From: Clostridia bacterium
GTDB taxonomy: Bacteria; Bacillota; Clostridia; Christensenellales; Aristaeellaceae
DNA: 60,574 nt
Assembly: GCA_017469265.1 (NCBI GenBank)
Contig: JAFUGS010000007.1
Coordinates: forward strand, 1-60,574
Reading direction: 5' to 3'
The position numbers and the translations under genes were made by a program. Shown here one piece after another: positions 4,755 to 36,291 of the stretch. Numbering within the stretch: the stretch's first letter is position 1; every line of letters starts with the position of its first letter. The notes below the pieces were generated by a model. The model was not told where the DNA came from, did no database searches, and worked only from the letters and a program-made list of their open reading frames with translations.

Positions 4755-4783
4755 ATGAAACAGGAATACGAGGAGGCGGCTTC

Positions 4784-5356: not shown

Positions 5357-5426
5357 GGCGAAAAGCCACGGGAACAGCGAACAGGAAGTCAGGACCCCTC
5401 AACGGAGAAAGGGGAGGAACGGACGG

Positions 5427-5990: not shown

Positions 5991-6023
5991 GCGGGTGAAA
6001 GCGAAAAAAGGAGAAGGAAGATC

Positions 6024-6803: not shown

Positions 6804-6857
6804 CCGGGATGAAACGGCGAAAGAAAGGGAGAAGACACGCGGGGCGCGAGGCGGAGC

Positions 6858-7343: not shown

Positions 7344-7363
7344 AGGAAAGGAAGAAAACCATC

Positions 7364-7798: not shown

Positions 7799-7802
7799 TT
7801 TT

Positions 7803-18169: not shown

Positions 18170-18276
18170 CTGCCGCGCGGAGAAACATCGGAAAGCTTTT
18201 GACCGGTCCCGCGCGGAGCCCTGGCGGCTTCCGCCGCGGACCGAAAAAAAGAAAAACACAGACGGAGGGGAAAGAT

Positions 18277-19317
18277 ATGAACATGAAATCGCTGACAGCT
18301 GTACTGCTGACCCTGGCGCTGGCGCTGAGCGCAGTTTCCGGCGCCCTGGCGGTGAATGAGGACATTGAGGGCAAGGTGGTCATTTACACCTCCATGTATC
18401 CCTTCATGATCGACCAGATGACCGCGGCGCTGAAGGAAGAATTCCCGAATCTGGAGGCAAAGCTGGAGTATGGCGGTACCGGTGACCTGCAGACCAAGCT
18501 GGCCGGGGAAATGGGGGATGACCTGAAGGGACAGCTGAGCTGCGATATGCTGATGGTGGCGGAGCCCGCGTATTCGCTGGAGCTGAAGGAATACGGCTAT
18601 CTGGAGCCTGTAGAGATTGAGAATCCGGCGGATCTGCTGCGCTTTGATTACGATCCGGAGGGATACTGGTATCCCGTGCGGACGCTGAACATGGTCCTGG
18701 CCTACAATCCGGAGAAGTACAGCCTGGAGGAGGTTCCCACGACCTTCAAGGCCTTCGCGGAGGACAGGAGCCTGGACGGTCACATTTCCATGGGCAATCC
18801 GCTGACCTCCGGCACGGCCATGGCGGCGATTGTCGCCCTGTCCGACAAGTATGGCTATGACTATTTTAAAGCGCTGGGTGAGAACCATGTAATGATCGAA
18901 TCCGGCTCCACCGCGCTGGCCAAGCTGCAGACCGGGGAGTGCAAAGCGATTATGATTCTGGAGGAATCCGTGCTGAAGATCCGGAAGGAGGAGAATTCTC
19001 CCATCACCGTGATCTATCCGGAGGATGGCGTCATTCTCGTGCCCAGCACGGTTATGACCATCGCCGAGAACAGGAGTGCCAACGCGAATATTGAGGCCTG
19101 CGAGGCGGTCACGAACTGGCTCCTCAGCGAGGAAGGCCAGCGGTGCATTCTCTCCGGCTACATGCACGCCGTCCGGAAGGGCATGTCGGAATATCCCTAC
19201 GATTCCATGGATACGGATGCCCTGATTGAAAAGGATATGGGCGTGGACTGGGAACGCTGCTACCATGACCGGGACGAGATCCGCGGCCAGTTCCAGGAAG
19301 CCGTTACCATGCCCTGA
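18277..19317 (+). CDS. ABC-type substrate-binding protein (ferric/AfuA-like)
   Basis: A 346-residue periplasmic-type binding protein. A signal peptide (hydrophobic core LTAVLLTLALALSAVSGALA) precedes the mature start at VNEDIEGKVVIYTS. There is no lipobox cysteine, unusual for a Gram-positive binding protein, so anchoring is unclear. The fold resembles the FbpA/AfuA extracellular solute-binding family, which takes ferric iron or phosphorylated sugars or polyamines. Start ATG 18277 follows GGAGGGG. It begins a three-gene importer, with the permease 11 bases behind. The ligand cannot be fixed from sequence. Confidence 0.87.
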   Translation: MNMKSLTAVLLTLALALSAVSGALAVNEDIEGKVVIYTSMYPFMIDQMTAALKEEFPNLEAKLEYGGTGDLQTKLAGEMGDDLKGQLSCDMLMVAEPAYSLELKEYGYLEPVEIENPADLLRFDYDPEGYWYPVRTLNMVLAYNPEKYSLEEVPTTFKAFAEDRSLDGHISMGNPLTSGTAMAAIVALSDKYGYDYFKALGENHVMIESGSTALAKLQTGECKAIMILEESVLKIRKEENSPITVIYPEDGVILVPSTVMTIAENRSANANIEACEAVTNWLLSEEGQRCILSGYMHAVRKGMSEYPYDSMDTDALIEKDMGVDWERCYHDRDEIRGQFQEAVTMP

Positions 19318-19328
19318 GGTGAAAGACA

Positions 19329-21770
19329 TTGACGCGTAAAGCAAATCGGCAGCCTGCCAGGACCGTCCTGCTGACGGTTCTGGCGGGGCTGCTCCTTTTT
19401 TCATCGCTGATGATCGGCGGCGGCATCCACGGCATTTCCACATTTGACCGCTCCGGGTATACCACCGAGGATGTGTGGAGCTGGACGCTGCGGCTGGGCG
19501 GGGAGGCGGAGACCCTTTATCGGGAGTGGACAGCGCCGGAACTGGCGACGCTGCCGGAAGCGGAACAGGCAGGCGCCGCGCGGGCCGCGCGAAGGCTGCT
19601 GGCGGAAGCCTGGCACGTGAACGAAACCGACCTGGCGGAATATACGGACGCGCAGGTCTGGAAGCTGCTGTCCATGACCTATTCCTTCTCCCGGAAAAAA
19701 ATTTCCAGCGCGGGACGGAAATCCATCGCGGCGATTGAAGATCCGGCGGAAGCGGGAAAGCAGATGCTCTCTGTGCTGGCCGCGGGATCGGGCATCGCGG
19801 AGAACCCGGCGCTGTCCGGTCTGTCCGTGCTGGAAGGCGCGGACGCGGCGATGACGGCTCAGGTATTTCTGGCGGCGCGAAATGAGAACGCTACCGTGCT
19901 GTCGAAGGAAACGTCGCTGGCCTTTACCCGGGCTGCCGGGGATGAGGAGAAGGAAATCGAGGCGATGCAAGCCTGGGCGGCGGGAACCGTTTCCCCTCTG
20001 AACGCCTGGGTGACGGAGCATGCCAGGACGGTGATTCTGCTCGGCGCGCTGCTGATGCTGGATGTGATTCTGCTCTTCATCCTGCTGCGACAGGAAAAGA
20101 GCTGGCGGGTGGATCTCAAGTGGATGCTGATTCTGCTGATCGTGGACTTCCTGGTGGTTTTCCAGCTGCTTCCGCTGGTCTATCTGCTGATCCGGGCCTT
20201 CTTTCCCAGCGGCATGTTTTCGCTGGAGACCTTCCGGCGGCTGTATACCTACGCCATGAACTGGCAGGCGCTGACGAACACGCTGACCGCGTCCGCCTGC
20301 ACAATGGTGCTGGGAACGGCGATTGCCTATCCGCTGGCTTACCTGGTGGGGCGTACCAACCTGTACGGACGGAAGTTTTTCCGGTCCCTGTTCGTGCTGA
20401 CCTATATGGTGCCGCCGTATGTCGGCGCCATGGCCTGGCTGAGGCTGCTGAATAAGAACGTGGGCACCATCAATCTGCTGCTCCGTGGCCTGTTTGGACT
20501 GCGGATTACGGAAGGACCGCTGAACATTTATTCCCTGGGCGGGCTGATCTGGGTGCTGACCACCTTCTATTTCCCGTACGCGTTCATCACCATTTCCCGG
20601 GCCATGGAAAAGATGGATCCCTCCCTGGAGGAGGCATCCCGGATCGCGGGAGCCAGCCCCTTCCAGACGGTGCTGAAGATTACCCTGCCCATCATGACCC
20701 CGTCGCTGATCGCCGGGGCGCTGCTGGTCTTTGTCTGCGCGGCCAGCTGTTACGGCATTCCCTCTATTATCGGCGCGCCGGGAAATGTACATACCGTTAC
20801 CACCCGGATCATCGAGTACTACGGGCTGGGGGTGAAGGGAATCAACGACGCCACGGGCCTGGCTGTTTTCCTGATCCTGATCGCCCTGGTGGTGCTGTAC
20901 CTTTCTGATTTTGTGATGGCCAAAAAGCAGTATGTTACGGTCTCCGGCAAATCGACCCGCCCGGCCATGGTGGATCTGCGGAAGTGGCGCGTCCCCCTGA
21001 CGGTGATGATGGGGCTTTTTGCGGTAATCGCCGTGGCGGTTCCCTTCGCGACGATTCTGACCACCTCCTTCAAGGTGGATGTGGGCAAATCCCTGCTGGA
21101 GGAAGGCAACTTTACCCTGAACCAGTGGAATGCCCTTTTCCGGGATGAATCGCTGGGCTGCCTGAAAAACTCTCTGCTTTTCGGCGCTGCGGCCGCGACC
21201 ATCGGCGCGGTCATCTCCTGCGTCATGAGCTACCTGATGCAGCGAACCCGCATCCGCGGCCGGAAACTGCCGGATTTCCTGATTACGCTGGGATCCGGTA
21301 CGCCTTCCGTGGTCATTGCCCTGGGGCTGATCATGACCATGCGGGGGCAGTTTGGAGTCAACATTTATAACACGGCGGGCATCCTGATTGTGGCATACCT
21401 GATCAAATACCTGATGATGGGCATGCGCACGGTTTCCTCCGCCATGTCGCAGATTCATGTCTCCCTGGAGGAGTCCTCCCAGATTTCCGGCGCCGGATGG
21501 CTGCGGACCATGGTCCGGATCACCGGTCCGCTGATTATGCCCTCCATCGCGGCGGGATGGTTCCTGATCTTTATTCCCTGCTTCTATGAGCTGAGCATGA
21601 CCACGCTGCTGTATACCAGCGAAACCAAAACCATCGGATATCAGCTGTATCAGTACTGGACCTTTACCAGCCAGCCGCAGGCGTGCGCCATGGCCTTTGG
21701 CATTCTGCTGTTTGTGGTTGTGCTGAACTTTGTGCTGAACCGGCTGACCAAGGGCGAATTCACCATCTGA
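19329..21770 (+). CDS. Two-domain ABC permease with extra N-terminal domain
   Basis: An 813-residue fused permease (FbpB-like). It begins with TTG at 19329, after AGGTGAAAG. Each half has an EAA loop: EEASRIAGASPFQTVLKITLP and EESSQISGAGWLRTMVRITGP, marking the ATPase contacts. Unusually, residues about 38-225 form an extra domain between the first helix and the usual permease core. It is helix-rich and extracytoplasmic by the positive-inside pattern. Standard FbpB proteins are about 500-560 residues. It overlaps nothing and is followed 10 bases later by the ATPase. Confidence 0.9.
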   Translation: MTRKANRQPARTVLLTVLAGLLLFSSLMIGGGIHGISTFDRSGYTTEDVWSWTLRLGGEAETLYREWTAPELATLPEAEQAGAARAARRLLAEAWHVNETDLAEYTDAQVWKLLSMTYSFSRKKISSAGRKSIAAIEDPAEAGKQMLSVLAAGSGIAENPALSGLSVLEGADAAMTAQVFLAARNENATVLSKETSLAFTRAAGDEEKEIEAMQAWAAGTVSPLNAWVTEHARTVILLGALLMLDVILLFILLRQEKSWRVDLKWMLILLIVDFLVVFQLLPLVYLLIRAFFPSGMFSLETFRRLYTYAMNWQALTNTLTASACTMVLGTAIAYPLAYLVGRTNLYGRKFFRSLFVLTYMVPPYVGAMAWLRLLNKNVGTINLLLRGLFGLRITEGPLNIYSLGGLIWVLTTFYFPYAFITISRAMEKMDPSLEEASRIAGASPFQTVLKITLPIMTPSLIAGALLVFVCAASCYGIPSIIGAPGNVHTVTTRIIEYYGLGVKGINDATGLAVFLILIALVVLYLSDFVMAKKQYVTVSGKSTRPAMVDLRKWRVPLTVMMGLFAVIAVAVPFATILTTSFKVDVGKSLLEEGNFTLNQWNALFRDESLGCLKNSLLFGAAAATIGAVISCVMSYLMQRTRIRGRKLPDFLITLGSGTPSVVIALGLIMTMRGQFGVNIYNTAGILIVAYLIKYLMMGMRTVSSAMSQIHVSLEESSQISGAGWLRTMVRITGPLIMPSIAAGWFLIFIPCFYELSMTTLLYTSETKTIGYQLYQYWTFTSQPQACAMAFGILLFVVVLNFVLNRLTKGEFTI

Positions 21771-21780
21771 AGGAGAAAAA

Positions 21781-22854
21781 ATGGCGAAAGTAACGATTAA
21801 AAACCTGACGAAGAGCTATGGCACCGCGCAGGTGCTCAAGAGCCTGAACGCGGAGTTTCAGGACGGGGAATTCGTGACGCTGCTGGGTCCCTCCGGCTGC
21901 GGAAAAACCACCATTCTGCGGCTGATTGCCGGCTTCGAGCAGCCCACCTCGGGGGAAATCTGGATCGGTGACACGCTGGTGTCCGGGGGAAAAACGCTGC
22001 TGCCGCCGGAGAAACGGGACATCGGCATGGTGTTTCAGTCCTACGCGGTCTGGCCGCATATGTCGGTCTTTGAAAACGTTGCCTATCCGCTGCGGCTGAA
22101 GCATACCCCCAGGGAAGAAATCAACGAACGGGTGCACCGGATTCTGTCCGTTGTTCATCTGGAGCAGTATGCTTCCCGGCTGCCCAATCAGCTTTCCGGC
22201 GGACAGCAGCAGCGGGTCGCGCTGGCGCGGGCTCTGCTGGCCCGGCCGAAGCTGCTGCTGCTGGATGAGCCGCTGTCCAATCTGGACGCGAAACTGCGGG
22301 AATCCATGCGCTTCGAGATCAAGGATCTGGCCAGAGAACAGGGCATCACCGTTGTCTATGTCACCCATGACCAGAGCGAGGCCATGACCATGAGTGACCG
22401 CATCTTTCTGCTGAACAACGGCGAGGTGCAGCAGTGCGATACGCCCAGCGAAATTTACAATCATCCGGTGAACCCATTCGCCGCGGACTTTCTGGGAAAG
22501 GTATCCTTCTTCAGCGGGACGGCGGAAAAGGGACAGATTCTCCTCCCGGACTGGGAGCAGCGCATTCCCGGCCGGGAAGGGGATCCGGCCGGCCCGGTAA
22601 CCGTTGGGCTCCGGCCGGAAAACTTCCGGATGGAGAAGGACGGACAGGGAATTCCCGGCGTGATTTCCCGGATGTATTACCTGGGCGATACGACGGACTA
22701 CCGGATCCGGGTCGGCAAGGCGGAGGTGCGTGTCATCCTGGATGGCGCCTCACACCGGCGATTTCAGCCCGGAGACACGGTCCGCCTGGAAATCCTGGAC
22801 AGAATGGTGTTCGCCGGCGCGGATGTTCAGGATCAGCTGAAAATCCGCACCTGA
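21781..22854 (+). CDS. ABC transporter ATP-binding protein (ferric-type, TOBE domain)
   Basis: A 357-residue ATPase energising the upstream permease. Walker A is GPSGCGKT (residues about 36-43), the signature LSGGQQQRVALARAL, Walker B LLLLDEPLSNLD and the switch His in YVTHDQSEA. The C-terminal 110 residues form a TOBE-like regulatory domain (VGLRPENFRM, and a beta-rich tail). It closes the importer cassette with 10 bases between it and the permease. The start follows AAGGAGAAAA. Confidence 0.94.
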   Translation: MAKVTIKNLTKSYGTAQVLKSLNAEFQDGEFVTLLGPSGCGKTTILRLIAGFEQPTSGEIWIGDTLVSGGKTLLPPEKRDIGMVFQSYAVWPHMSVFENVAYPLRLKHTPREEINERVHRILSVVHLEQYASRLPNQLSGGQQQRVALARALLARPKLLLLDEPLSNLDAKLRESMRFEIKDLAREQGITVVYVTHDQSEAMTMSDRIFLLNNGEVQQCDTPSEIYNHPVNPFAADFLGKVSFFSGTAEKGQILLPDWEQRIPGREGDPAGPVTVGLRPENFRMEKDGQGIPGVISRMYYLGDTTDYRIRVGKAEVRVILDGASHRRFQPGDTVRLEILDRMVFAGADVQDQLKIRT

Positions 22855-22926
22855 GTAAAAGCGGCACGCCGGAAGTATGCCGGATGCGCGGAGCAGAAGA
22901 ATCAAACAGGCAGGAGGTGGCGAACC

Positions 22927-23664
22927 ATGCAGAAGGAAATGATTACCCAATACAGCGAGGCACTCCGCCGGGAGATGCATGTCATGGTATACGGATATGA
23001 CGGAGTGCCCTTTCTGTGCTTTCCGACCCAGGATTCCATGTGCCATAACTATGAGGATTTTGGCATGACGGATCAGCTGGCGGACTGGATCAATGACGGG
23101 CGGATTCAGCTGTACGTGGTGGACACGGTGGACCGGGAAAGCTGGTCCGCGCAGGACGGGGACAAAGCGGCCAGGGCGGAACGGCAGGAGCAGTACTTCC
23201 ACTATATTGTGGATGAGACGGTTCCGCTGATTCAGAGCAGAAATCCGCGGACACCCGCGGTGACCGGCTTCAGCATGGGGGCCAATCACTCGGTGATTAC
23301 CTTTCTCCGGCGGCCGGAGCTGTTCCGCGGCGTGATCGCGCTGTCCGGGGTGTACGACACGGATTACTTTTTTCAGGGATGGATGAATCCCACGCTGTAT
23401 GACAGCGCGCCGGACCGCTTCCTGCCCAACATGCCGGCGGATCATCCGTATGTGAAACTGTATAATGAGCGGAAAATGATCCTGTGCGTCGGCCAGGGCG
23501 CGTGGGAGGAGGACGGGGTCCGCTCCCTCCGGTATCTGGAAACGGTTTTTCGGGAGAAAGGGATTCATGCCTGGTGTGATTTCTGGGGCTTTGACGTGAA
23601 CCATGACTGGCCATGGTGGTTTAAGCAGATGCGGTACTTTGTGCCGAAGATGATAGAAGGGTGA
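22927..23664 (+). CDS. Esterase-like alpha/beta hydrolase
   Basis: A 245-residue protein of the esterase-D type alpha/beta-hydrolase family. The nucleophile elbow is GFSMGAN (Ser near residue 118), with a likely acid Asp and His in the C-terminal part (DFWGFDVNHDWPWW). No signal peptide is seen. ATG 22927 follows CAGGAGGTGG. Its stop codon overlaps the start of the ATP-grasp gene (TGATG), so the two are translationally coupled and probably act in one pathway. The substrate is unknown. Confidence 0.87.
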   Translation: MQKEMITQYSEALRREMHVMVYGYDGVPFLCFPTQDSMCHNYEDFGMTDQLADWINDGRIQLYVVDTVDRESWSAQDGDKAARAERQEQYFHYIVDETVPLIQSRNPRTPAVTGFSMGANHSVITFLRRPELFRGVIALSGVYDTDYFFQGWMNPTLYDSAPDRFLPNMPADHPYVKLYNERKMILCVGQGAWEEDGVRSLRYLETVFREKGIHAWCDFWGFDVNHDWPWWFKQMRYFVPKMIEG

Positions 23665-24860
23665 TGAAAACCGTGAAGAATTATGTCTTTGTTTCTCCGC
23701 ATTTCCCTCATACCTACTGGCAGTTCTGTGACCGGCTGCACCGGAACGGGATCAACGTGCTGGGAATTGGGGACGCGCCATACGACAGCCTGGAAGCGCC
23801 GCTGAAGGAGGCGCTGACGGAATATTATCGGGTGGACAGCCTGGAGGATTATGACAAGGTTTACCGGGCGGTGGCGTTCTTTGCTTTCAAGTATGGAAAA
23901 ATCGACTGGATCGAATCCATGAATGAGTACTGGCTGGAGCAGGACGCCCGGCTGCGGACGGATTTTAATCTTTCCACCGGCATTCGCTCAGACCGGATCG
24001 GCTTTATCAAGGAGAAAAAACTGATGAAACAGCTGTACCTGGAGGCGGGAATCCCCACGGCCAGACAGCACGTTGTGTCCGACTGGGCGGCGGGGAAAGC
24101 TTTTGTCCGCGAAGTGGGTTATCCCGTCATTGTGAAGCCGGATGTGGGTGTCGGCGCGACGCGCACCTGGAAGGTGGAGGACGAGGCCGGGCTGGACGCC
24201 TTCTATGACCGCCTGCCGGAGGTGCCCTACGTGATGGAGGAATTCATTCAGGGCGAAATCTGCTCCTACGACGCCATTCTCGATTCGCGGTGTGAGCCGC
24301 TGTTTGAAAGCATGACGGTCTGGCCGCCGGTGATGGATATCGTGAACAAGGATCTGGACCTGATGTATTATACCTGTCCGGAGGTACCGGAAAAGCTGCG
24401 GGCGCTGGGCCGGAAGACCGTCAAAGCCTTTGGCGTGGACCGCCGGTTTGTCCATCTGGAGTTTTTCCGGCTGACAAAGGCCCGGAAGGGGCTGGGCAGC
24501 GTCGGGGACTTTGTGGCGCTGGAGGTCAATATGCGCCCCGCCGGCGGCTATACACCGGACATGATAGATTTCGCGCACTCCACCGATGTTTATCAGATTT
24601 ACGCGGATATGGTGGCCTTTGACACCCGGAAGGTTCCGGAATCTACCGAGCATTTCTACTGCGTGTATGCCAGCCGCAAGGACGGGCATGTCTACGCGCA
24701 TACCCATGAGGAGATCATGGCCCAATATGGCGCCTTCATGATGATGCAGGAAGAGATGCCCCCGATGAACTGGCCACAGATGGGAAGATATATGTATACG
24801 GCCCGGCTGAAGACCTTTGAGGAGGCGCAGGCCTTCATCCGCTTTGTCCAGGGAGGCTGA
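23664..24860 (+). CDS. ATP-grasp ligase-like protein
   Basis: A 398-residue ATP-grasp enzyme (carbamoyl-phosphate synthase/biotin carboxylase-like), expected to make an acyl-phosphate and join it to an amine or thiol. The nucleotide-binding lysines are visible in GYPVIVKPDVGVGATRTWK and the acid loop in YVMEEFIQGE, with metal ligands at ALEVNMRPAGGY. I use ATG 23664 because it overlaps the previous stop; GTG 23661 is one codon earlier and almost equivalent. The N-terminal 100 residues form the pre-grasp domain. Partner substrates are unknown; the coupled esterase is the best clue. Confidence 0.85.
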   Translation: MKTVKNYVFVSPHFPHTYWQFCDRLHRNGINVLGIGDAPYDSLEAPLKEALTEYYRVDSLEDYDKVYRAVAFFAFKYGKIDWIESMNEYWLEQDARLRTDFNLSTGIRSDRIGFIKEKKLMKQLYLEAGIPTARQHVVSDWAAGKAFVREVGYPVIVKPDVGVGATRTWKVEDEAGLDAFYDRLPEVPYVMEEFIQGEICSYDAILDSRCEPLFESMTVWPPVMDIVNKDLDLMYYTCPEVPEKLRALGRKTVKAFGVDRRFVHLEFFRLTKARKGLGSVGDFVALEVNMRPAGGYTPDMIDFAHSTDVYQIYADMVAFDTRKVPESTEHFYCVYASRKDGHVYAHTHEEIMAQYGAFMMMQEEMPPMNWPQMGRYMYTARLKTFEEAQAFIRFVQGG

Positions 24861-24988: not shown

Positions 24989-25015
24989 GAAACGCTCCTG
25001 TGGAGCGTTTCTTTC
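24989..25015 (+). terminator. Stem-loop terminator after the ATP-grasp gene
   Basis: A perfect 10 bp stem: GAAACGCTCC (24989-24998), loop TGT, GGAGCGTTTC (25002-25011), then TTTC. The T-tail is short, but the stem is strong and isolates the next operon. Confidence 0.65.
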
Positions 25016-25125
25016 ATGGGCGAGAAAAATGCCGCCTCTGTTTTCCGTTTTAGTTTCTTTTTAAGTGCGCGTGGTATTTTCCTGCTGTCCGAAAGGACGA
25101 TGAAGCGAACGAAGGAGTGAGGACA

Positions 25126-26268
25126 GTGAAGAAAAGCCCTGTTTTACGAAATATACTGATCGATATCGCGCTCACCGGAGTGGCCCTGGTCATCTTTGCC
25201 CTGTTTCATCATGTGCTGCCCAGACAGCAGCAGGGAATGGGGATCGTGATCAGCAATCCCTACGCGACGGAGACCCCGGCGGAGGATGTGGGGCTGGCTT
25301 TGCCGGAAAACGCGGCACTGCTGGCTTCGGCCGGTACGAGTGACGTGCTGACGATGGATGGAGCTTCTGTCGCGGCGGCCAGGGGCCGGAAGGAGAACGG
25401 CGGCGGAAAAAACGGCTCAAACGGCAAGGGGGGGAGCGCGCTGAGCGAGAGCGGCACGGAAGCCGAGAGCGACGCGGAAACGACAGAGGCGGATGACACC
25501 CCTATCGCGGAGAAATTTACGGACCGATATACGGATACGGTCGTGGTGACCGAAAACAGCTATTCCAGCCCGGATATCTCCATCACCGTGACCGAGGAAA
25601 CCCTGGGGCGCACGACCTATTATCTGGCGGATATCTACGTGCGGGATATCACCTGCTTCCAGTCCGCGCTGGCCCGTGACACCTATGGCAGTGGTTACCG
25701 GGACAGCATCACGGACATGGCGGCGCTAAACGACGCGCTGGTGGCCGTCAACGGGGACTATTACGGCAATACCAACGAGGGGGTCGTGATCCGCAACGGC
25801 GTTATTTACCGCGCGAACAACACCAGCTGTGATGTATGCGTGCTGTATTATGACGGAACCATGCGGGTGATGCCGGGCTCCGCGTTCACCGTGGAGGAGG
25901 CCATCGCGGATGGGGCGTGGCAGGCATGGACCTTTGGACCGGCGCTGCTGGATACGGATGGCAGCGTGCTGACCTCCTTTGCCAGCACCGGCCGCATTAT
26001 TTCTGCCAATCCGCGTACCGCGATCGGTTATTATGAGCCGGGGCATTACTGCATGGTCGTGGTGGACGGACGGGGCGAATCGGCGGGCATCAGCCTGCCG
26101 GATCTGAGCCAGCTGTTTTATGATCTTGGCTGCGTGGCAGCCTATAACCTGGATGGCGGCAACTCCTCCATCATGGTATGGCGTGACGCGGTGATTAATC
26201 AGCCCTCCGGCGGAGGAAGGGAAAGCAGCGACGCCCTGCTGATCGCGGAGGTGAACAGCCGTGAATAA
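25126..26268 (+). CDS. Membrane-anchored phosphodiester glycosidase-domain protein (NAGPA/DUF2233-like)
   Basis: A 380-residue protein anchored by an N-terminal helix (IDIALTGVALVIFALFHHV). A low-complexity Gly/Ser/Glu linker follows, then a phosphodiester glycosidase fold (VNGDYYGN, FGPALLDTDGS, NPRTAIGYYEPG, YNLDGGNSSIM). This family removes GlcNAc from phosphodiester-linked sugars (NAGPA) or acts on bacterial glycans. GTG 25126 is preferred because GAAGGAG lies eight bases upstream; GTG 25117 is too close. A tiny GTCC-GAAA-GGAC hairpin (25087-25098) sits in the leader. First gene of the seven-gene operon. Confidence 0.85.
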   Translation: MKKSPVLRNILIDIALTGVALVIFALFHHVLPRQQQGMGIVISNPYATETPAEDVGLALPENAALLASAGTSDVLTMDGASVAAARGRKENGGGKNGSNGKGGSALSESGTEAESDAETTEADDTPIAEKFTDRYTDTVVVTENSYSSPDISITVTEETLGRTTYYLADIYVRDITCFQSALARDTYGSGYRDSITDMAALNDALVAVNGDYYGNTNEGVVIRNGVIYRANNTSCDVCVLYYDGTMRVMPGSAFTVEEAIADGAWQAWTFGPALLDTDGSVLTSFASTGRIISANPRTAIGYYEPGHYCMVVVDGRGESAGISLPDLSQLFYDLGCVAAYNLDGGNSSIMVWRDAVINQPSGGGRESSDALLIAEVNSRE

Positions 26269-26452
26269 GCTCTATCGCCTGCTGAGTCACACGACTTTCA
26301 TCCTGGCCCTGATGTTCCTGGTGTTCCTGGTGCTGGATCAGTTTAACCCCATGATGAACTTTATCGACAACAATATTTCCCGGTGGCTGCTGGCTGCCCT
26401 TTGCGGGAGCGGAATCGGCCAGAGTATGCTGCACTGGCATTTTCAGAAATAG
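26261..26452 (+). CDS. Small membrane protein, 63 aa
   Basis: GTG 26261 overlaps the previous stop by eight bases, with GCGGAGGTGAAC as ribosome site. The 63-residue product has two hydrophobic segments: THTTFILALMFLVFLVLD-like near residues 10-27 (as encoded, SHTTFILALMFLVFL) and SRWLLAALCGSGIG near 40-53. I do not recognise the family. The overlap with its upstream partner and the short gap (16 bases) to the next gene put it firmly in the operon. It may be a membrane chaperone or regulator of the polymer enzymes. Confidence 0.72.
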   Translation: MNKLYRLLSHTTFILALMFLVFLVLDQFNPMMNFIDNNISRWLLAALCGSGIGQSMLHWHFQK

Positions 26453-26468
26453 AAAGGAAGCGGAGACA

Positions 26469-28142
26469 ATGAAACGGAATTCTCTCCACGCGGCGGCGCT
26501 GGCGCTGGCGCTGCTCTGTGCCATGATTCTGCGCCCGGCGGCGGCGGAGAGCGCGCTGGATGTTTCAACCTTGTACAAGAATAAGGATGTGGACGCGGAC
26601 TGGAGCGCGTCCGAGGCCAGTGTGATTGATCTGAACGCGCTGGAGGAGGATACGCTGATCCTGACGGAAAAAGGGGATTACGTCCTTTCCGGTGACTGGA
26701 ATGGGCAGATCGTGATCGAGGCGGATACGGAGGAAAAGGTTCGTCTGATCCTGAACGGCGTCTCCATCACCAGCCCGCAGGGTCCCGCCATCTATGAAAA
26801 GCAGGCGGACAAGCTGATCATCACGCTGGCGGAGGGAACGGAAAACACCCTGACGGACGGCGCCGCGGTAACGGATGGAGATGATACCATCAGCGCGGCC
26901 CTGTACGCGGAGGATGATCTTTCCATCAACGGCAGTGGCAGCCTGATGATCCAGGGGACGCAGAAGCATGGGATCCAGTCCAAAGCGGATCTGATTGTCG
27001 CTGGAGGAGAAATCCAGGTAAATGCCGTTCTCGATGGCCTCCGGGGGCGCAATTCCGTGCTGGTGCTGGACGGAAACCTGATGATGACCTGTGGCGGGGA
27101 CGGGATCGTTTCGACCCGCGCGGACGCCGAGGGAAAGGGCTGGATCGTTCTGGCGGGCGGCAGCGTCACCATCAAAACGGGGGATGGCGCTGGCGCGGTA
27201 CGCACATCCGCCAACGCCATGGGTGGTTTTGGCGGCCGGGGACGCTGGGATGACTGGGGTGATACGCAGAACGGGTCGGACAGCGAAGTTTCCCAGAAGG
27301 CTGTCAAGGCGGCCACTGATCTGACGGTGCTGGACGGCACGTATTGTTTTGACTGTGCCGATGACGGGCTGCATGGCGTTAATGTGACGGTTCAGGGCGG
27401 TAATTTCGAAATCCAGTCCGGCGATGATGGTATGCACGCGGATGAAGAGATGACGGTGAACGGCGGAAGCATCTCCATTTCCCAGTGCTATGAGGGCCTG
27501 GAAGGGAAGAATGTGACGGTGAACGGCGGTGAGATCCGTATTGTCGCGTCGGACGACGGCATCAACGCTTCCGGCGGCAATGACGGTTCCGGCTTTGGCG
27601 GCTGGGGCCGGGGCGGCGGATACGCGGCCTCCGGTGAAGGCGGCATGCTGACCATTACAGGCGGTCAGACCGCTGTGACCGCGGGCGGCGATGGGCTGGA
27701 CAGCAATGGAAGCATCGCGCTGACCGGCGGGGTGGTCGGCATCTGGACGGAAAGTGAAATGCATGAGGGGCCGATTGACTTTAACGGAACCGGTACGCTG
27801 TCCGGTGTGAACCTGATCATTGCCAGCACGGGCGGCATGATGCAGGATATGATGGGGTTGAGCGGCCAGAGTATCATGTCCCTCTCCACGACAGGAACGG
27901 TGCAGGCGGGCGGGGAAATCAGCCTGCTGGATGAAAATGGCAATGTGCTGGCGACCTTTGCCCCGGAAAATGAGTTTAACACGGTAATGGTATCCTCCGG
28001 CAGCCTGCCGGAAGGCGCGGGCTGTCAGGTTCTGTGCGACGGCACGGAGATTTACAGCGGAGAAATGAGCAACAATCTGACAGCCTCCGGAAACGATGGC
28101 GCAGACCGCGGCTTTGGGAGACAGAACCGGAAGGGAAGGTAA
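26469..28142 (+). CDS. Secreted beta-helix carbohydrate-binding-like protein (Cthe_2159/DUF4353-like)
   Basis: A 557-residue exported protein. A signal peptide (ALALALLCAMILRPAAA) precedes a long run of beta-helix coils rich in Gly, Asp and Asn: GDWNGQIVIEADTEEK, VNGGSISISQC, VNGGEIRIVASDDG and ITGGQTAVTAGGDG. This pattern matches the polysaccharide-binding beta-helix family of Cthe_2159. It has no catalytic motif. The Gly-rich loops (GGFGGRGRWDDWG and GFGGWGRGGG) interrupt the coils. It is three bases before the VTC gene. It probably binds an acidic or crystalline surface polymer at the cell surface. Confidence 0.83.
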   Translation: MKRNSLHAAALALALLCAMILRPAAAESALDVSTLYKNKDVDADWSASEASVIDLNALEEDTLILTEKGDYVLSGDWNGQIVIEADTEEKVRLILNGVSITSPQGPAIYEKQADKLIITLAEGTENTLTDGAAVTDGDDTISAALYAEDDLSINGSGSLMIQGTQKHGIQSKADLIVAGGEIQVNAVLDGLRGRNSVLVLDGNLMMTCGGDGIVSTRADAEGKGWIVLAGGSVTIKTGDGAGAVRTSANAMGGFGGRGRWDDWGDTQNGSDSEVSQKAVKAATDLTVLDGTYCFDCADDGLHGVNVTVQGGNFEIQSGDDGMHADEEMTVNGGSISISQCYEGLEGKNVTVNGGEIRIVASDDGINASGGNDGSGFGGWGRGGGYAASGEGGMLTITGGQTAVTAGGDGLDSNGSIALTGGVVGIWTESEMHEGPIDFNGTGTLSGVNLIIASTGGMMQDMMGLSGQSIMSLSTTGTVQAGGEISLLDENGNVLATFAPENEFNTVMVSSGSLPEGAGCQVLCDGTEIYSGEMSNNLTASGNDGADRGFGRQNRKGR

Positions 28143-28145
28143 GCG

Positions 28146-28895
28146 ATGGAAGAGAGCTTTGCCAGGGTGGAAACCAAATACATGCTGACGCCGGCGCAGG
28201 AAGCCGCCATGGAAAGGGGCCTGCGGGCATATGGGTTCCGATGGATGGACTTCGGCAGCCCGGCTGTGCAGAGCCTGTATTATGATACTGCCGTGCATCA
28301 GCTGATCCGGACCTCGCTGGACCGGCCGGCGTACAAGGAAAAGCTTCGCCTGCGGACCTACGGCCTGCCCGGCGCGCAGACCATGTCCTTTGTGGAAGTG
28401 AAGAAGAAATACAACGGCGTGGTATACAAACGGCGGACCGCGCTGCCCTTCGCGGAGGCGTATCACTGCCTGGCGAAGGGACAGCTGCCGGAGGAGACGG
28501 GCCAGGTCGGCCGGGAAGCGGTCTGGATGGTGAAACGCTACGGCCTCATTCCCAGCACAGTGATCGCCTATGACCGCCATGCATGGTTCAGTAACCGGGA
28601 ACCGGACATCCGGATTACCTTTGACCGGAATCTGGCCTTCCGGACCTTTGACCTGAACCTGGCCAGCCAGGCGGAGAACACCGTATTCACGCAGCCGGAT
28701 CAAAGACTGATGGAAATCAAAACCGGCGGCGTTTATCCCCTGTGGCTGACAAGGCTGCTGGAGGAGGTCGGCGCTGAGCGCATCCACTACTCCAAGTATG
28801 GATATGCTTATCAGCATTATATTGCACAAAAGGATCCGGCGGGAGAGAGGAGCGATGAAACGTGTTTGAAAGCATTTTTTCCAAAGGCAGTCTGA
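28146..28895 (+). CDS. VTC-domain polyphosphate polymerase
   Basis: A 249-residue VTC-family (triphosphate tunnel metalloenzyme) catalytic domain. The basic and acidic tunnel residues expected are visible: VETKYML at the N-terminus, SLYYDT, EKLRLRTYG, FVEVKKKYNGVVYKRR, YDRHAW and LMEIKTGGVYPLW. In the family, it builds polyphosphate from ATP; bacterial homologues often lack the yeast SPX domain, as here. The stop overlaps the DUF4956 gene by 34 bases in another frame, strong evidence of coupling. ATG 28146 lies three bases after the beta-helix stop. Confidence 0.9.
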   Translation: MEESFARVETKYMLTPAQEAAMERGLRAYGFRWMDFGSPAVQSLYYDTAVHQLIRTSLDRPAYKEKLRLRTYGLPGAQTMSFVEVKKKYNGVVYKRRTALPFAEAYHCLAKGQLPEETGQVGREAVWMVKRYGLIPSTVIAYDRHAWFSNREPDIRITFDRNLAFRTFDLNLASQAENTVFTQPDQRLMEIKTGGVYPLWLTRLLEEVGAERIHYSKYGYAYQHYIAQKDPAGERSDETCLKAFFPKAV

Positions 28896-29533
28896 CGGCG
28901 GAAAGCGTGCTGCTGGCGCTGGGCATGGCCCTGGCGCTGGGGATCGCGGCAGCGTTGTATTATGTCAGGAGCAACCGGACAACGACCCGCTCCTTCGCCC
29001 TGACGGTGGCTGTGCTTCCTTTGATCACGGCCACCGTAATCATGGTGGTCAACGGCAATCTCGGTGCCGGGATCGCGGTAGCGGGTTCCTTCAGCCTGAT
29101 CCGTTTCCGGTCCGTTCAGGGGAGCGGACAGGAAATTCTGGCGGTGTTTTTATCCGCCTCCCTGGGTCTGTGCCTTGGCGCCGGATATGTGGGTATTGCC
29201 TGCCTGCTGCTGGTTCTGTACATCGCGGCGATGCTGCTGCTGCGCGCTGCCCATTTCGGGGAAACCGCCGAACAGATGAGGGAGCTGCGAATCTCGCTGC
29301 CGGAAGCGCTGGAATATGACGGCCTGTTTGATGACCTGCTGAAAAGCTATTTCACTGTCTGCGAGCTGCAGCAGGTGCGCACCATTGAAATGGGCACGGC
29401 CTATCAGCTGATTTACCGGGTGATGCCGAAAAATCCCCGCGATGATCAGGCGTTCCTGAACGCGGTACGGGAGCGGAACGGCAATCTGCCGGTTTCCCTG
29501 GGCAGGGTGCCCGATGTCCGGCAAAGCATGTGA
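28862..29533 (+). CDS. DUF4956 membrane protein
   Basis: A 223-residue protein with four hydrophobic segments (residues about 15-35, 45-60, 65-80, 100-125) followed by a cytoplasmic domain. The DUF4956 mark is SFSLIRFRS after the second helix group. It starts GTG 28862 inside the VTC gene. DUF4956 proteins commonly travel with VTC enzymes and are suspected to be membrane partners for polymer handling. That is an association, not a known biochemistry. It ends 49 bases before the response regulator. Confidence 0.87.
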   Translation: MFESIFSKGSLTAESVLLALGMALALGIAAALYYVRSNRTTTRSFALTVAVLPLITATVIMVVNGNLGAGIAVAGSFSLIRFRSVQGSGQEILAVFLSASLGLCLGAGYVGIACLLLVLYIAAMLLLRAAHFGETAEQMRELRISLPEALEYDGLFDDLLKSYFTVCELQQVRTIEMGTAYQLIYRVMPKNPRDDQAFLNAVRERNGNLPVSLGRVPDVRQSM

Positions 29534-29582
29534 CAGGTGACAGGAGAAACGTTCTGTGATATGCTGATAAAGGGTGAGAAGC

Positions 29583-30257
29583 ATGAGAATTCTGTTTGCG
29601 GAGGATGACCGCGACCTGAACCGGGCGGTTAAAACCCTGCTGGAAAGATCCGGATATCAGGTGGATCCTGTTTTTAACGGCGCGGACGCAGCCTCGTACG
29701 CGGCGGCGGAAGCTTACGACGGGATGATCCTGGACTGGATGATGCCGGAGATGGACGGCATCGACGCCCTGCGGCAGATTCGCGGCAGGGGAATTTCCGC
29801 GCCCTGTCTGATGCTGACCGCCAGGGACGCGGTGGAGGACCGGGTCATGGGGCTGGATGCCGGGGCGGACGATTATCTGCCCAAGCCCTTTGACGCCAGC
29901 GAACTGCTGGCCCGGGTGCGCGCCATGCTGCGGCGGCGGGAAGCCTATGTGCCGGATCAGATTACCTTTGAGGATCTGACGCTGGATAAGGGCAAAAATG
30001 AACTGCGCTGCGGTGAAAAAGCGGCGCAGCTGACCGGAAAAAGCTATCAGATGATGGAAATCCTGATGGAAAATCCCCGCATCATCTTTTCTGTCCAGCA
30101 GCTGATGGACCGGATTTGGGGCTGGGACGCGGAGGCGGAGATCAACGTGGTGTGGGTGAATATATCCCAGCTGCGAAAAAGGCTGAATGAGCTGGGATCG
30201 CAGACGGAAATCCGAATGCACCGTGGGACGGGTTACTCTCTGGAGAAAAAGGCATGA
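29583..30257 (+). CDS. OmpR-family response regulator
   Basis: A 224-residue two-component regulator. The receiver has DD at 8-9, phospho-acceptor Asp51 (MILDWMMPEMDG), and Lys in YLPKPFD. The winged helix-turn-helix is at the C-terminus (VVWVNISQLRKRLNE, RGTGYSLE). The chosen ATG (29583) follows GGGTGAG; an alternative GTG at 29574 has a poor site. It overlaps the kinase start by four bases (ATGA). As the sixth gene of the operon it may self-regulate it. Confidence 0.95.
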   Translation: MRILFAEDDRDLNRAVKTLLERSGYQVDPVFNGADAASYAAAEAYDGMILDWMMPEMDGIDALRQIRGRGISAPCLMLTARDAVEDRVMGLDAGADDYLPKPFDASELLARVRAMLRRREAYVPDQITFEDLTLDKGKNELRCGEKAAQLTGKSYQMMEILMENPRIIFSVQQLMDRIWGWDAEAEINVVWVNISQLRKRLNELGSQTEIRMHRGTGYSLEKKA

Positions 30258-31504
30258 TCAAAAAGCTGCAGAAGAGGTTTATCCGCATTGCCGTTATGGC
30301 GCTGACCGTGGCCATGGTGCTGGTGGTAAGCATTGTCAACATCGCCAACTGGATCAGCGTGCGCGGCGAGCTGGACGAAACGCTGACATTTCTGACGGAG
30401 AATGAGATCGCGGAACCAAAGATGGGGATGGGTACCCGCCTGATGGGCAGGAACAAGCACGCCCGGAACCTGGTCAACGAATCCCGGTGGTTTTCCGTCT
30501 CCTTTGACGAAGAAGAAAACCAGCGCGGCATCAATCTGGACCACATGGCGGAATCTGACAGCGAGGCCGCCGCTGCCCTGGGAAAGCAGGCGCTGGAAAG
30601 CGGCAGGGGAAAGGCTTTTTTACAGGATTACTATTTCCGGGCGCTGGAAACGGCGGAAGGTGGAAAAACCATTTTTTTCCTGAACTGTGAGACCAAGATC
30701 ACCGCGGTACGCACGCTGGCTTGGATTTCCGCGGGCGCCTGCGTGGGCGGGATCCTGCTGGCATGGCTGATCGTTTTCCTGGCCAGCCGCAAAGCCGTGG
30801 CGCCGACGATCCGCAACATGGAACAGCAAAAGCAGTTCATCACCAACGCCAGCCATGAACTGAAAACACCGCTGACGGTGATTTCCACCAATATGGAGCT
30901 GCTGAACATGGAAACACCGGATAATCCCTGGATCCGCAGCACCCAAAAACAGACGGCGCAAATGCGCCATCTGGTGGATGAACTGGTGTATCTTTCCCGC
31001 ATGGAGGAGGAAAATGGACCGCTGAAGACGGAAAAACTGAATCTCAGCTCGCTGGCGGCGGATACGGCGGCGCCTTTCGCGGATATGGCGGAATACAGAG
31101 GGCGGGAGATGAAAATGGACCTGGAAGATTCCCTGTTCATCTTCGCCGACCGCGCGTCCATGGAGCGGCTGATTTCCACCCTGTGCGACAACGCGGTGAA
31201 ATATGCCGCCGGAGAAGCGCCGATCCGGATCCGGACCAGAGGGGAAGGGCGGACCGCTGTGCTTTCGGTCTCCAATGAAGTGGCGGAGCCCCTGAGCAGG
31301 GAGCAGTGCGATCAGCTTTTCAACCGCTTTTACCGCGCGGAGTCATCCCGAAACAAGGAAAAACAGAATGGCTTTGGCATCGGCCTGGCCATTGCCGCGG
31401 CGATCGTGGAAAAGCATGGCGGAAGCATCGGCGCGGCCATGACGGAACCGCGGACGCTGACCTTCACCTGTCAGCTTCCCAGGCAGACGGGAAAAACCGC
31501 GTGA
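30254..31504 (+). CDS. Sensor histidine kinase
   Basis: A 416-residue kinase. It has two membrane helices (about 13-32 and 154-177) flanking an extracytoplasmic sensor of about 120 residues, then the phospho-accepting helix (NASHELKTPL, His201), N box (LCDNAVKYA) and G box (NGFGIGLAIAAAI). The sensor holds no recognised ligand domain. Its ATGA overlap with the regulator gives a standard pair. An envelope signal is the natural guess from the rest of the operon. Confidence 0.95.
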   Translation: MIKKLQKRFIRIAVMALTVAMVLVVSIVNIANWISVRGELDETLTFLTENEIAEPKMGMGTRLMGRNKHARNLVNESRWFSVSFDEEENQRGINLDHMAESDSEAAAALGKQALESGRGKAFLQDYYFRALETAEGGKTIFFLNCETKITAVRTLAWISAGACVGGILLAWLIVFLASRKAVAPTIRNMEQQKQFITNASHELKTPLTVISTNMELLNMETPDNPWIRSTQKQTAQMRHLVDELVYLSRMEEENGPLKTEKLNLSSLAADTAAPFADMAEYRGREMKMDLEDSLFIFADRASMERLISTLCDNAVKYAAGEAPIRIRTRGEGRTAVLSVSNEVAEPLSREQCDQLFNRFYRAESSRNKEKQNGFGIGLAIAAAIVEKHGGSIGAAMTEPRTLTFTCQLPRQTGKTA

Positions 31505-34121: not shown

Positions 34122-34148
34122 CCAGTATACAGTTTGTGAGGAATGAAT

Positions 34149-35261
34149 ATGGAACAAATGTTTCGTCTGCTGATCATCAACCCCGGATCGACCTCCACCA
34201 AGATCAGCGTTTTCGAAAATGAAAAGTCCGTCTTTGAGCAGAGCCGGTTCCATGACGCGCCGCTGCTGCTGCAGTACCCGCATGTCAACGATCAGGTTCC
34301 CTTCCGCTACAGCGTCATGCTGGAGATGCTGAAGGAAGGCGGGATTGATCCTGCGACAATCGACGTGGCGGTCGGCCGCGGCGGAAGCGCGCATACGCAG
34401 CTCAGCGGCGTGACGGTGATTGATCAGAAGCTTTACGATGATACGCTGGCCGCGGTGGGCGGCAGTGAGCATGCCGCGAAGCTGGGGGTCCTGCTGGCCT
34501 GGAAGTTCGCGCTCGAATATCGGAAGCCCGCCTATACCCTGAATCCCACCAATGTGGATGAATACTGCGATTATGCCCGGCTGACGGGGATCCGCGGCAT
34601 CTACCGCTTCGGCCACTCCCATGTGCTGAATCAGAAAGCGGTGGCGGAGGCCCACGCCGAGGCCATGGGCCGTCGGTATGAGGACTGCCGTTTTATCGTG
34701 GCGCATATTGACGGCGGCGTAACGGTCGGCGCGCATGAGTACGGCCGTATGGTGGACGGCAATATGGGCGCGGACGGGGAAGGCGCCTTCTCCCCGACCC
34801 GCATCGGCTATGTGCCAGTGCTGGAGCTGCTGGATTATCTTGAGGAACATCCCATGGATGAAGTCAGGCGCATGTGCTCCAGAGCGGGTGGATTCGTCAG
34901 CCTGTTTGGCACCTCCAACTCCGATACCATCCACGCCCTGGTGGATCAGGGAGACCGGAAGGCAACACTGGTCTGGAACACGATGATTTACCAGATCTGC
35001 AAGAATATTGGCGAGATGAGCGCCGTGCTCTGCGGAAAAGTGGATGCCATTCTGCTGACCGGCGGCCTGATGCGGTTTGATGACATCACCGCGGGGATCC
35101 GGGAGCGCTGCGGCTGGATCGCGCCGATCCATGTCTATCCGGGAGAGCTGGAGCAGGAAGCGCTGGCGCTGTCCACGCTGAAGGTGCTGCGGGGCCAGAC
35201 GGAAGCCAGGATCTACAGTGGAAAGCCGGTCTGGCAGGGCTTTGAGGGCATTACATTCTGA
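34149..35261 (+). CDS. buk: Butyrate kinase
   Basis: An acetate/sugar kinase-fold enzyme (370 residues) converting butyryl-phosphate and ADP to butyrate and ATP. The N-terminus RLLIINPGSTSTKISVFE and VGRGG, plus HIDGGVTVGAHE and the SLFGTSNSDTIH stretch, match butyrate kinases rather than acetate kinases, which begin with a different LVINSGSSS. ATG 34149 is preferred; ATG 34143 sits directly on the ribosome site GTGAGGA. The stop is 19 bases before pta. Pairing with Pta instead of Ptb is odd. Branched-chain or acetate specificity is possible. Confidence 0.87.
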   Translation: MEQMFRLLIINPGSTSTKISVFENEKSVFEQSRFHDAPLLLQYPHVNDQVPFRYSVMLEMLKEGGIDPATIDVAVGRGGSAHTQLSGVTVIDQKLYDDTLAAVGGSEHAAKLGVLLAWKFALEYRKPAYTLNPTNVDEYCDYARLTGIRGIYRFGHSHVLNQKAVAEAHAEAMGRRYEDCRFIVAHIDGGVTVGAHEYGRMVDGNMGADGEGAFSPTRIGYVPVLELLDYLEEHPMDEVRRMCSRAGGFVSLFGTSNSDTIHALVDQGDRKATLVWNTMIYQICKNIGEMSAVLCGKVDAILLTGGLMRFDDITAGIRERCGWIAPIHVYPGELEQEALALSTLKVLRGQTEARIYSGKPVWQGFEGITF

Positions 35262-35280
35262 CGGAAAGGAATGAAAAAAG

Positions 35281-36291
35281 ATGAGCATGATTGAGCGGGT
35301 ATGGGCGAAAGCCCGTCAGAACCAAAAGACCATTGTGCTGCCGGAAGGGGAGGAACCCCGCACCATACGGGCCGCGGCCAGGACGCGGGATGAGGGGATC
35401 GCGAATCCCATCCTGCTGGGTGCCCCTGAAAAAATCCGCGCTGTGGCGGAAGCATCCGGAACGGATCTGAAGGGCATCACACTGATCGATCCCGCTCACA
35501 GCCCCAAAGCCGACGCCTACGCGGAGACGCTGTATGAACTGCGCAAGGCAAAAGGACTGAGCCGGGAGGAAGCTGTACGCCTGACGGCGGATCCCATGTA
35601 TTTCGGCATGCTGATGGTCAAACTGGGAGACGCGGACGGCCTGGTTTCCGGGGCGGTCCATTCCACAGGGGACATGCTGCGGCCGGCGCTGCAGATCATC
35701 CGGACCCGGCCCGGCATTCAGATTGTCTCATCCAGCTTCCTGATGAACTGTCCCAATCCCGCCCTGGGCGAGAACGGGCTGCTGGTCTACGCCGACTGCG
35801 TGGTTGTACCATGCCCAAGTGCGGAGGAACTGGCGCAGATCGCCATTTCCGCGGCGGATACGGCCCGCGTCCTGTGCGGGATCGAGGAACCCAGGGTCGC
35901 GATGCTGTCCTTTTCGACCAAGGGAAGCGCGAAGCATGAGCTGGTGGACAAGGTGCGCCGGGCAACGGAGATCGCGCATGAGCTGGCGCCGGAGCTGCTG
36001 CTGGACGGCGAAATGCAATTGGACGCGGCGCTGATCCCGGAGGTCGGACAGCTGAAAGCACTCGAAAGCAAGGTGGCGGGCCGTGCCAATGTCCTGATCT
36101 TCCCCGATCTGCAGTCCGGCAACATTGGTTATAAGATTACCCAGCGCATTGGCGGCGCGGAGTGCTACGCGGTGCTTCAGGGCCTCGCGAAGCCCTGCAA
36201 TGATCTGTCCCGCGGATGCAGCGTGGAGGACATTGTCAACACCATCGCGCTGACCGCGGTGCAGGCCGGGTCTGTACAGATGGCTCGGTAA
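35281..36291 (+). CDS. pta: Phosphate acetyltransferase
   Basis: A 336-residue Pta that exchanges acetyl-CoA and phosphate for acetyl-phosphate. The start is ATG 35281 after GAAAGGAATG. Recognised segments are IVLPEGEEPRTIRAA, LVSGAVHSTGDMLRPAL, FSTKGSAKHELVDKV, IFPDLQSGNIGYKI and the C-terminal SRGCSVEDIVNTIALTA, which mark Pta rather than Ptb (about 300 residues). It follows buk and ends at a terminator, forming a two-gene acyl-phosphate unit. Confidence 0.92.
   Translation: MSMIERVWAKARQNQKTIVLPEGEEPRTIRAAARTRDEGIANPILLGAPEKIRAVAEASGTDLKGITLIDPAHSPKADAYAETLYELRKAKGLSREEAVRLTADPMYFGMLMVKLGDADGLVSGAVHSTGDMLRPALQIIRTRPGIQIVSSSFLMNCPNPALGENGLLVYADCVVVPCPSAEELAQIAISAADTARVLCGIEEPRVAMLSFSTKGSAKHELVDKVRRATEIAHELAPELLLDGEMQLDAALIPEVGQLKALESKVAGRANVLIFPDLQSGNIGYKITQRIGGAECYAVLQGLAKPCNDLSRGCSVEDIVNTIALTAVQAGSVQMAR

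Follow-up and report, generated by a model that had tools for sequence, protein, structure and literature searches.

The yeast VTC complex synthesizes and translocates polyphosphate, and its subunit Vtc4 is inactivated by joint mutation of R264, R266, and E426 (PMC9911596). In streptococci and clostridia, genes for CotH, a polyphosphate polymerase, and DUF4956 have been described beside pelDEADAFG (PMC7112168). The streptococcal two-component system CiaRH controls teichoic acid genes (PMC8317062); the CiaR box reads TTTAAG-N5-TTTAAG, followed after ten bases by the −10 (PMC3091779), and the same sequence marks the upstream regions bound by a CiaR relative in Bacillus (PMC3091779, PMC8317062, PMC4938410). 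Here, we describe a seven-gene operon with likenesses to all three systems, located in a 60,574-nt stretch of DNA (the window) from a gut bacterium of class Clostridia (Clostridia bacterium; Christensenellales; Aristaeellaceae; GCA_017469265.1, contig JAFUGS010000007.1, forward strand). We propose that it is an autoregulated envelope operon, in which a VTC-domain protein and a DUF4956 membrane protein would make polyphosphate alongside secreted partners, and we put the probability of this explanation as a whole at roughly 0.5. The features of the locus, in window coordinates, are the following.

24990 to 25010, + strand: terminator-like hairpin AAACGCTCC-TGT-GGAGCGTTT, found by sequence inspection, separating the operon from the upstream genes
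25049 to 25065, + strand: CiaR-type direct repeat TTTAGT-TTCTT-TTTAAG, putative site of the operon's own response regulator, 2/12 mismatches to TTTAAG-N5-TTTAAG
25075 to 25080, + strand: weak −10-like hexamer TATTTT, 9 bases 3' of the repeat, found by sequence inspection
25126 to 26268, + strand: NAGPA-family protein (phosphodiester glycosidase family; PF09992, E 1e-32)
26261 to 26452, + strand: 63-amino-acid (63-aa) membrane protein with the motif LDQFNPMMNF (alignment of relatives), partner of the NAGPA-like gene
26469 to 28142, + strand: secreted beta-helix protein, Cthe_2159 family (PF14262, E 2.7e-76)
28146 to 28895, + strand: VTC-domain (triphosphate-tunnel) putative polyphosphate polymerase (PF09359, E 3e-33)
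28862 to 29533, + strand: DUF4956 membrane protein (PF16316, E 2.5e-12)
29583 (or 29574) to 30257, + strand: OmpR-family response regulator (RR; Response_reg and Trans_reg_C)
30254 to 31504, + strand: membrane sensor histidine kinase (HK) with a small PAS-like extracytoplasmic domain (HisKA and HATPase_c)

The seven genes almost certainly form one operon. As the original prediction had claimed, all seven open reading frames (ORFs) are packed or overlapping, with overlaps of 8 bases (NAGPA/63-aa), 34 bases (VTC/DUF4956), and 4 bases (RR/HK). The recurrence of these overlaps in relatives argues that they are not accidental: the 8-base overlap was identical in all 12 loci in which both starts could be placed (window included), and the 34-base overlap was also seen in L044, L045, L053, L060 (=L040), L061, L062, and L063 (=L046), while the corresponding overlap was 8 bases in L041 and L042 and ambiguous in L043 owing to the start codon. 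The NAGPA-like gene probably starts with the GTG at 25126; another GTG, in frame at 25117, overlaps the AAGGAG ribosome-binding site. The hairpin was not among the calls of a consensus terminator scan. The predicted families held for six of the seven genes, whose products scored above the curated Pfam cut-offs (NAGPA 114.1 bits, cut-off 25; Cthe_2159 256.8, cut-off 25.8; VTC 115.8, cut-off 23; DUF4956 47.3, cut-off 30.6; Response_reg 99 and Trans_reg_C 69; HisKA 51 and HATPase_c 61); for the 63-aa protein, the Pfam profile search gave no family above cut-off. The tandem RR and HK genes give this conserved, coupled operon a two-component system of its own, as predicted.

To place the locus among its relatives, the window VTC protein was searched over 61 genomes and then over 45 genomes of the genus; in these searches the VTC genes fell into a close set (35 to 100% identity) and a distant set (about 25%). 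Close VTC genes were present in 19 of the 45 genus genomes at E 1e-20, the one in G010 being a fragment at a contig end. In 20 neighbourhoods (19 from the close set, and L059 from the distant one), VTC and DUF4956 stood together in 20/20 and a beta-helix gene was near in 15/20. The full seven-gene order was found in two other genomes (L062 of UBA4379 and L063/L046 of G032); in L041 the beta-helix gene alone is missing, and in L040/L060 and L053, truncated at contig ends, the remainder is kept. The neighbourhood conservation on which the original prediction depended is thus present.

A wider scan of GTDB by one peptide pattern gave at least 593 VTC relatives, of which the best 80 loci were kept, so that the window's clade is over-represented among them; nor are the loci independent (L040=L060 and L046=L063 are the same contigs, L124/L135 come from one isolate, and L072/L073 and L098/L101/L129 are close). 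DUF4956 was present at 75 of the 80, a Cthe_2159 beta-helix gene within 4.5 kb at 47, a kinase gene within 4 kb at 32 (counted with a profile made in this analysis, E 1e-15), NAGPA at 6, and CotH at 1 (L110). Among the 48 loci flanked by 4.5 kb or more in each direction, the corresponding counts were 45 for DUF4956, 27 for the beta-helix, and 22 for the kinase. The kinase genes cluster 1 to 2 kb upstream of VTC, with 17 in 70 kb versus 2 in about 240 kb at 5 to 10 kb upstream. These counts identify the window arrangement as a variant of a widespread Clostridia module. A sensor kinase, which the prediction had joined to the VTC genes, is thus a frequent neighbour, and NAGPA is present at only 6 of the 80 loci.

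A 72-row VTC tree (without L040, L046, and, from L065 on, every odd-numbered locus) separated the window's clade (60 rows) from another (12 rows) with 100/100 support, a value that comes from a bootstrap not fully settled and carries a long-branch warning. In the second clade, with flanks of only about 1.5 kb, CotH stood beside 6 of 11 loci and a beta-helix gene beside 2 of 11. CotH was also found near window-clade VTC genes in L110 and L169, so the split between the clades by CotH is strong but not absolute. By sequence comparison, the window's clade is widespread in Clostridia and distinct from the CotH-linked one. The earlier statement that VTC and DUF4956 usually occur with CotH therefore fits the other clade and fails for the window's own (CotH at 1/80 loci), while the reported absence of CotH from this locus was borne out, the genome's four CotH matches all lying on other contigs. 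Compared with the CotH-VTC-DUF4956 set of Gram-positive pel loci (PMC7112168), the operon shares a VTC polymerase gene beside DUF4956 and a surface-polymer setting, but it has the beta-helix protein, the NAGPA/63-aa pair, and the sensor pair in place of CotH, and its VTC gene belongs to a clade separate from the CotH-linked genes sampled, among which the pel-linked genes were not included in the tree.

The window's genome holds one locus of each VTC clade. At the other, canonical one (L009, G000:C91:5000-21000), positions 2764 to 8409 encode a NAGPA-like protein, a CotH protein with lamin-tail domains, DUF4956, and an other-clade VTC protein, and a second NAGPA-like gene is divergent.

What is new at this locus is the CiaR-type promoter box ahead of VTC genes. 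The original prediction had proposed a test of regulator binding upstream of the operon, and the repeat at 25049 to 25065 is a likely site. We scored a box as TTTAAG-N5-TTTAAG with up to 2 mismatches plus a −10 (TA...T) 9 to 11 bases on, always scanning upstream of VTC, although VTC is not the first gene in, for example, L060, L062, and L063. Such a box with its −10 lay ahead of 30 of the 80 VTC genes. Dinucleotide shuffles (30 rounds) gave 0.27 per set on average, and among 628 other long ORFs of the same loci one had it (tail 4e-30; this and the other hypergeometric values were computed ignoring phylogeny). The shuffles are the fairer test because the 628 controls, script-picked long ORFs and not annotated genes, include operon-internal genes. 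The spacing optimum was N5, loci with at most 1 mismatch numbering 0, 5, 18, 1, and 0 at gaps of 3, 4, 5, 6, and 7. In the genus/order set, a box was found in 11 of 20 first-gene upstream regions (two cut by contig ends) versus 0 of 138 control ORFs, and in relatives, too, the tandem repeat sits upstream of the module's first gene. When the 60,574 bases were scanned for the related TTTTAAG/11-bp form, allowing 2 mismatches, the repeat at 25049 was the sole match. Judged by these letters, the element in the VTC clade is the published CiaR box.

The recognition helix of the window RR, VVWVNISQLRKRL, is identical to the published CiaR helix at 7 of 13 positions, a figure that is not discriminating. 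Among the relatives, the box was absent (0/6) where the RR has another recognition helix, ATDDTVRRLRQKL, and present in 14 of 21 with other readable helices (tail 0.006); it was found at 4 of 6 further regulator loci whose helix was unreadable. G021 has the box at its VTC locus and the orthologous kinase (65% identity) on another contig. As in the streptococcal CiaRH regulon, an OmpR-type RR and a membrane HK are encoded in tandem, here with a 4-base overlap, the promoters of the window's relatives read TTTAAG-N5-TTTAAG-N10-TATAAT, and there is a link to surface polymers. The differences are the other organisms and target genes, the 2 mismatches of the window box, and a TTTCAG half-site in some relatives; the sequence comparison covered the box and the recognition helix. 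The operon is probably controlled by its own RR through the box at 25049 to 25065. The RR would switch the operon on, and since the RR and HK genes are its last two, the circuit would be one of positive feedback; the kinase may sense an envelope condition through its small PAS-like domain.

In the window's genome, the repeat was found at 37 sites when 2 mismatches were allowed, and at six of these a −10 follows at 9 to 11 bases. The six stand ahead of the present operon, of the genes for four predicted secreted Gly-rich proteins, and of a MATE transporter gene (contig C64), secretion and Gly-richness being judged by eye from the translations with no control set. A regulon of surface proteins under control of the box is thereby suggested.

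We next consider the VTC protein. A profile search of the PDB at E up to 1 matched only Vtc proteins (yeast Vtc4, 3g3q, E 9e-9) and no phosphatase. The counterparts of the catalytic residues of the Vtc4 tunnel domain are R68 (R264), R70 (R266), E190 (E426), and K217 (K458); all four were invariant in 19/19 sequences and each was kept in 101 of 102 aligned rows, the remaining row being a gap, so that loss of the tunnel residues, which would have spoken against the original prediction, was not seen. One tunnel fold serves enzymes of several activities (PMC4641920), and the protein could also be a tripolyphosphatase or other tunnel enzyme in an operon that handles nucleotide phosphate under envelope stress. 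An acidic patch marks the tunnel phosphatases (PMC4641920), and in the window's clade E9 occupies the position of Vtc4 T198. But R7, K192, and K95/R97 are basic like the aligned Vtc4 R196, K428, and K294/R296 (this comparison was made against Vtc4), the counterpart of K458 is kept, a residue termed catalytic in Vtc4 whose matching lysine matters little for the phosphatase (PMC4641920), and the PDB matches were Vtc proteins alone. We regard a phosphatase as quite improbable and consider it fairly likely, from the residues kept, that the protein makes polyphosphate, as a cytosolic, ATP-driven polymerase that would work on DUF4956.

Unlike the yeast complex, the 249-aa window protein is a tunnel domain alone, with no SPX domain and no hydrophobic segment, and the membrane part would be supplied by DUF4956. 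Assignment as a subunit of a eukaryotic VTC complex was considered and set aside, the SPX and own membrane domains being missing. No PPK1 match was found in the window's genome, the assembly of which is about 92% complete, while 32 of the 45 genus genomes gave one. The same genome does have PPK2 (three matches, two sharing an ORF) and Ppx-GppA (one match), polyphosphate users without the usual synthase, and this combination makes its two VTC genes the best polymerase candidates.

For DUF4956, an AlphaFold2 model built from 67 sequences (mean pLDDT 90.5) showed five long helices and, at the C-terminus, a domain of ferredoxin-like (ACT) type, and PF16316 was matched at E up to 0.05 in 67/67 aligned relatives. 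Fold matches covered the C-terminal domain only and included MgtC C-domains, ribosomal S6, and many ACT domains. These matches would suit a role in phosphate, Mg, or ATP homeostasis, with DUF4956 as an MgtC-like regulator, VTC making or sensing short chains inside the cell, no export, and the secreted proteins merely co-regulated. We find this unlikely: the ACT/ferredoxin-like fold is common, with many unrelated proteins tying with the MgtC C-domains or scoring higher; the MgtC family (PF02308) scored below its curated cut-off, with no match to the window protein at E 0.05 and weak ones in 2 of 67 relatives; two of the operon's partners have N-terminal surface signals; and most of the genome's other boxes with a −10 stand ahead of genes for predicted secreted proteins. 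In the envelope-operon reading, DUF4956 would anchor VTC to the membrane and may export the polymer. The invariant R81 and R83, at the end of helix 3 of the model, might line a path for the polyanion, and we offer passage of the polymer across the membrane with DUF4956 as a tentative possibility.

The remaining three proteins point outward. The NAGPA-like protein has one N-terminal membrane segment by hydropathy and is probably extracytoplasmic; its PDB profile matches were 3ohg (E 6e-10) and animal NAGPA 6pku (E 4e-6). With these NAGPA/DUF2233 glycosidases it shares a C-terminal domain with an NLDGG(N/G)S motif, but it is membrane-anchored, has a fixed 63-aa partner, and is a putative glycosidase by family. 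The 63-aa protein, with 24 invariant positions across 12 sequences, was present in 15 of the 45 genomes of the genus, each of them one of the 19 that carry the VTC clade (hypergeometric 1.1e-8, ignoring kinship). NAGPA was adjacent in 15/15 of these carriers; the 63-aa gene lay inside the VTC module in 12 of them and was unlinked to VTC in G009, G020, and G036. VTC-clade genomes of the genus without the 63-aa gene were G010, G014, G022, and G028, the loci of G010 and G014 being cut by a contig end.

A search for the 63-aa protein across 291 genomes of the class gave 10 matches, namely the window's own, six others that were strong, and three weak ones (E 0.006 to 0.009). All six strong distant genomes have NAGPA directly upstream of the 63-aa gene; in L173 the NAGPA frame is in two pieces, and L141, one of two copies in G073, ends before NAGPA. 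The five of these fetched with wider flanks showed no VTC in the DNA examined. Since the pair is conserved in distant genomes with no VTC seen nearby, NAGPA and the 63-aa protein form an older two-gene unit, added to the VTC module in this lineage, and the pair is the lineage-specific part of the operon.

The beta-helix protein has an N-terminal hydrophobic signal and matched PDB 4peu/4phb (E 4.7e-32). It shares the Pfam family with Cthe_2159 (4peu, 4phb) over residues 60 to 321 but is longer, with a Gly-rich insert. By the name of its Pfam family, Cthe_2159 is polysaccharide-binding. In our proposal, the membrane-tethered NAGPA-like enzyme and its 63-aa partner would cut sugar-phosphodiester bonds of surface glycans outside the cell and the secreted beta-helix protein would bind acidic polysaccharide; on balance, action of both proteins on a surface glycan seems to us the better guess. 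The NAGPA and Cthe_2159 families would fit glycans equally in a module modifying a phosphoglycan or exopolysaccharide, in which VTC and DUF4956 give a phosphate donor or phosphorylated product for a surface glycan and the NAGPA-like protein trims sugar-1-phosphodiesters, by analogy with what the CotH-VTC-DUF4956 accessory set may do for Pel loci; the pel neighbourhoods and the CiaRH control of teichoic acid genes cited above speak for such a module. We give it a low probability, as the operon has no glycosyltransferase or polymer synthase and CotH is absent from the locus. The product of the operon may be polyphosphate or a phosphoglycan, in either case in the envelope.

Several observations weigh against the proposal of an autoregulated polyphosphate operon. 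The window box is degenerate (2/12 mismatches, with a weak −10 at N9), the repeat by itself shows no enrichment genome-wide (37 sites versus 130 for the reversed control), and 50 of the 80 VTC regions lack a box plus −10. The box is also present at 12 of 47 loci where no RR was found, so that box and adjacent regulator are not one-to-one, and these loci are likely controlled in trans; L042 (G027) has no box and a different kind of kinase next to the module. In the VTC protein, E190 and K217 were matched to E426 and K458 through a second HMMER segment that alone is non-significant (−2.4 to −3.4 bits), and E9 at the T198 position recalls the acidic patch of the phosphatases. Our literature searches, of sources available in part, turned up no bacterial VTC protein with an assigned activity, polymerase included. 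PPK1 is present in 14 of the 19 VTC-clade genomes of the genus as well, so VTC is not simply a PPK1 replacement. The DUF4956 model gave no whole-length fold match and no sign of a channel. Finally, L167 (G036:C6) has the order NAGPA, 63-aa membrane protein, beta-helix, RR, and HK without VTC and DUF4956, and L165 and L166 have the NAGPA/63-aa pair alone; the L167 arrangement implies that the operon is built of cassettes, with the VTC pair a separable, removable one.

The locus is of more interest for its regulation and clade structure than for its gene list. Clostridia commonly carry VTC genes of its clade (the one pattern matched at least 593 relatives), and VTC genes can now be split into a CotH-linked clade and a beta-helix/sensor-pair clade, the second with a predicted regulator and operator; the CiaR-type operator is thereby extended to Clostridia. 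The analysis also points to genomes, the window's included, whose sole obvious polyphosphate polymerase is VTC (in the window's, no PPK1 match in an assembly 92% complete), and it makes the product and location of bacterial VTC-DUF4956 activity directly testable. The broadest version of our proposal, in which a stand-alone VTC polymerase and DUF4956 are the bacterial counterpart of the yeast machine and place polyphosphate on the surface of gut Clostridia under CiaR-type control, to act there with a secreted beta-helix protein that binds acidic polymers, a phosphodiester glycosidase, and a regulon of Gly-rich surface proteins, is rather doubtful.

Variants of the promoter repeat were noted. 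Upstream of NAGPA in L042 (G027), a different tandem repeat (TTCAAT...TTTCAAT) occupies the same position, beside the different kinase. The half-site variant TTTCAG was found upstream of VTC in L069, L071, L076, L090, L116, L124, and L135. Helices ending in SFLRKKL tended to pair with TTTCAG and those ending in SFLRRKL with TTTAAG, in few cases and with L099 mixed; this pairing is a possible specificity switch.

The four predicted secreted proteins whose genes follow a box and −10 elsewhere in the window's genome are the following.

Contig C19, L215 4586 to 6505, − strand: secreted esterase-like protein with a Gly-rich linker (BD-FAE, 34 bits)
Contig C46, L216 138 to 698, − strand: short secreted Gly-rich ORF, no Pfam family, apparently cut short
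Contig C69, L226 2226 to 3263, − strand: secreted Gly/Pro/Gln-rich protein, no Pfam family over cut-off
Contig C11, L227 1650 to 3236, − strand: secreted protein with a Gly/Pro-rich head and beta-helix-like repeats, no Pfam family over cut-off

In the flanks of the operon, window positions 18199 to 24860, immediately upstream of it, encode a solute-binding protein, a fused double permease, and an ABC ATPase, then an esterase and an ATP-grasp protein. On the 3' side, a cupin gene on the opposite strand ends just past the kinase gene, and an acetate/butyrate-type kinase gene adjoins one for a phosphate acetyl/butyryl transferase at 34143 to 36291.

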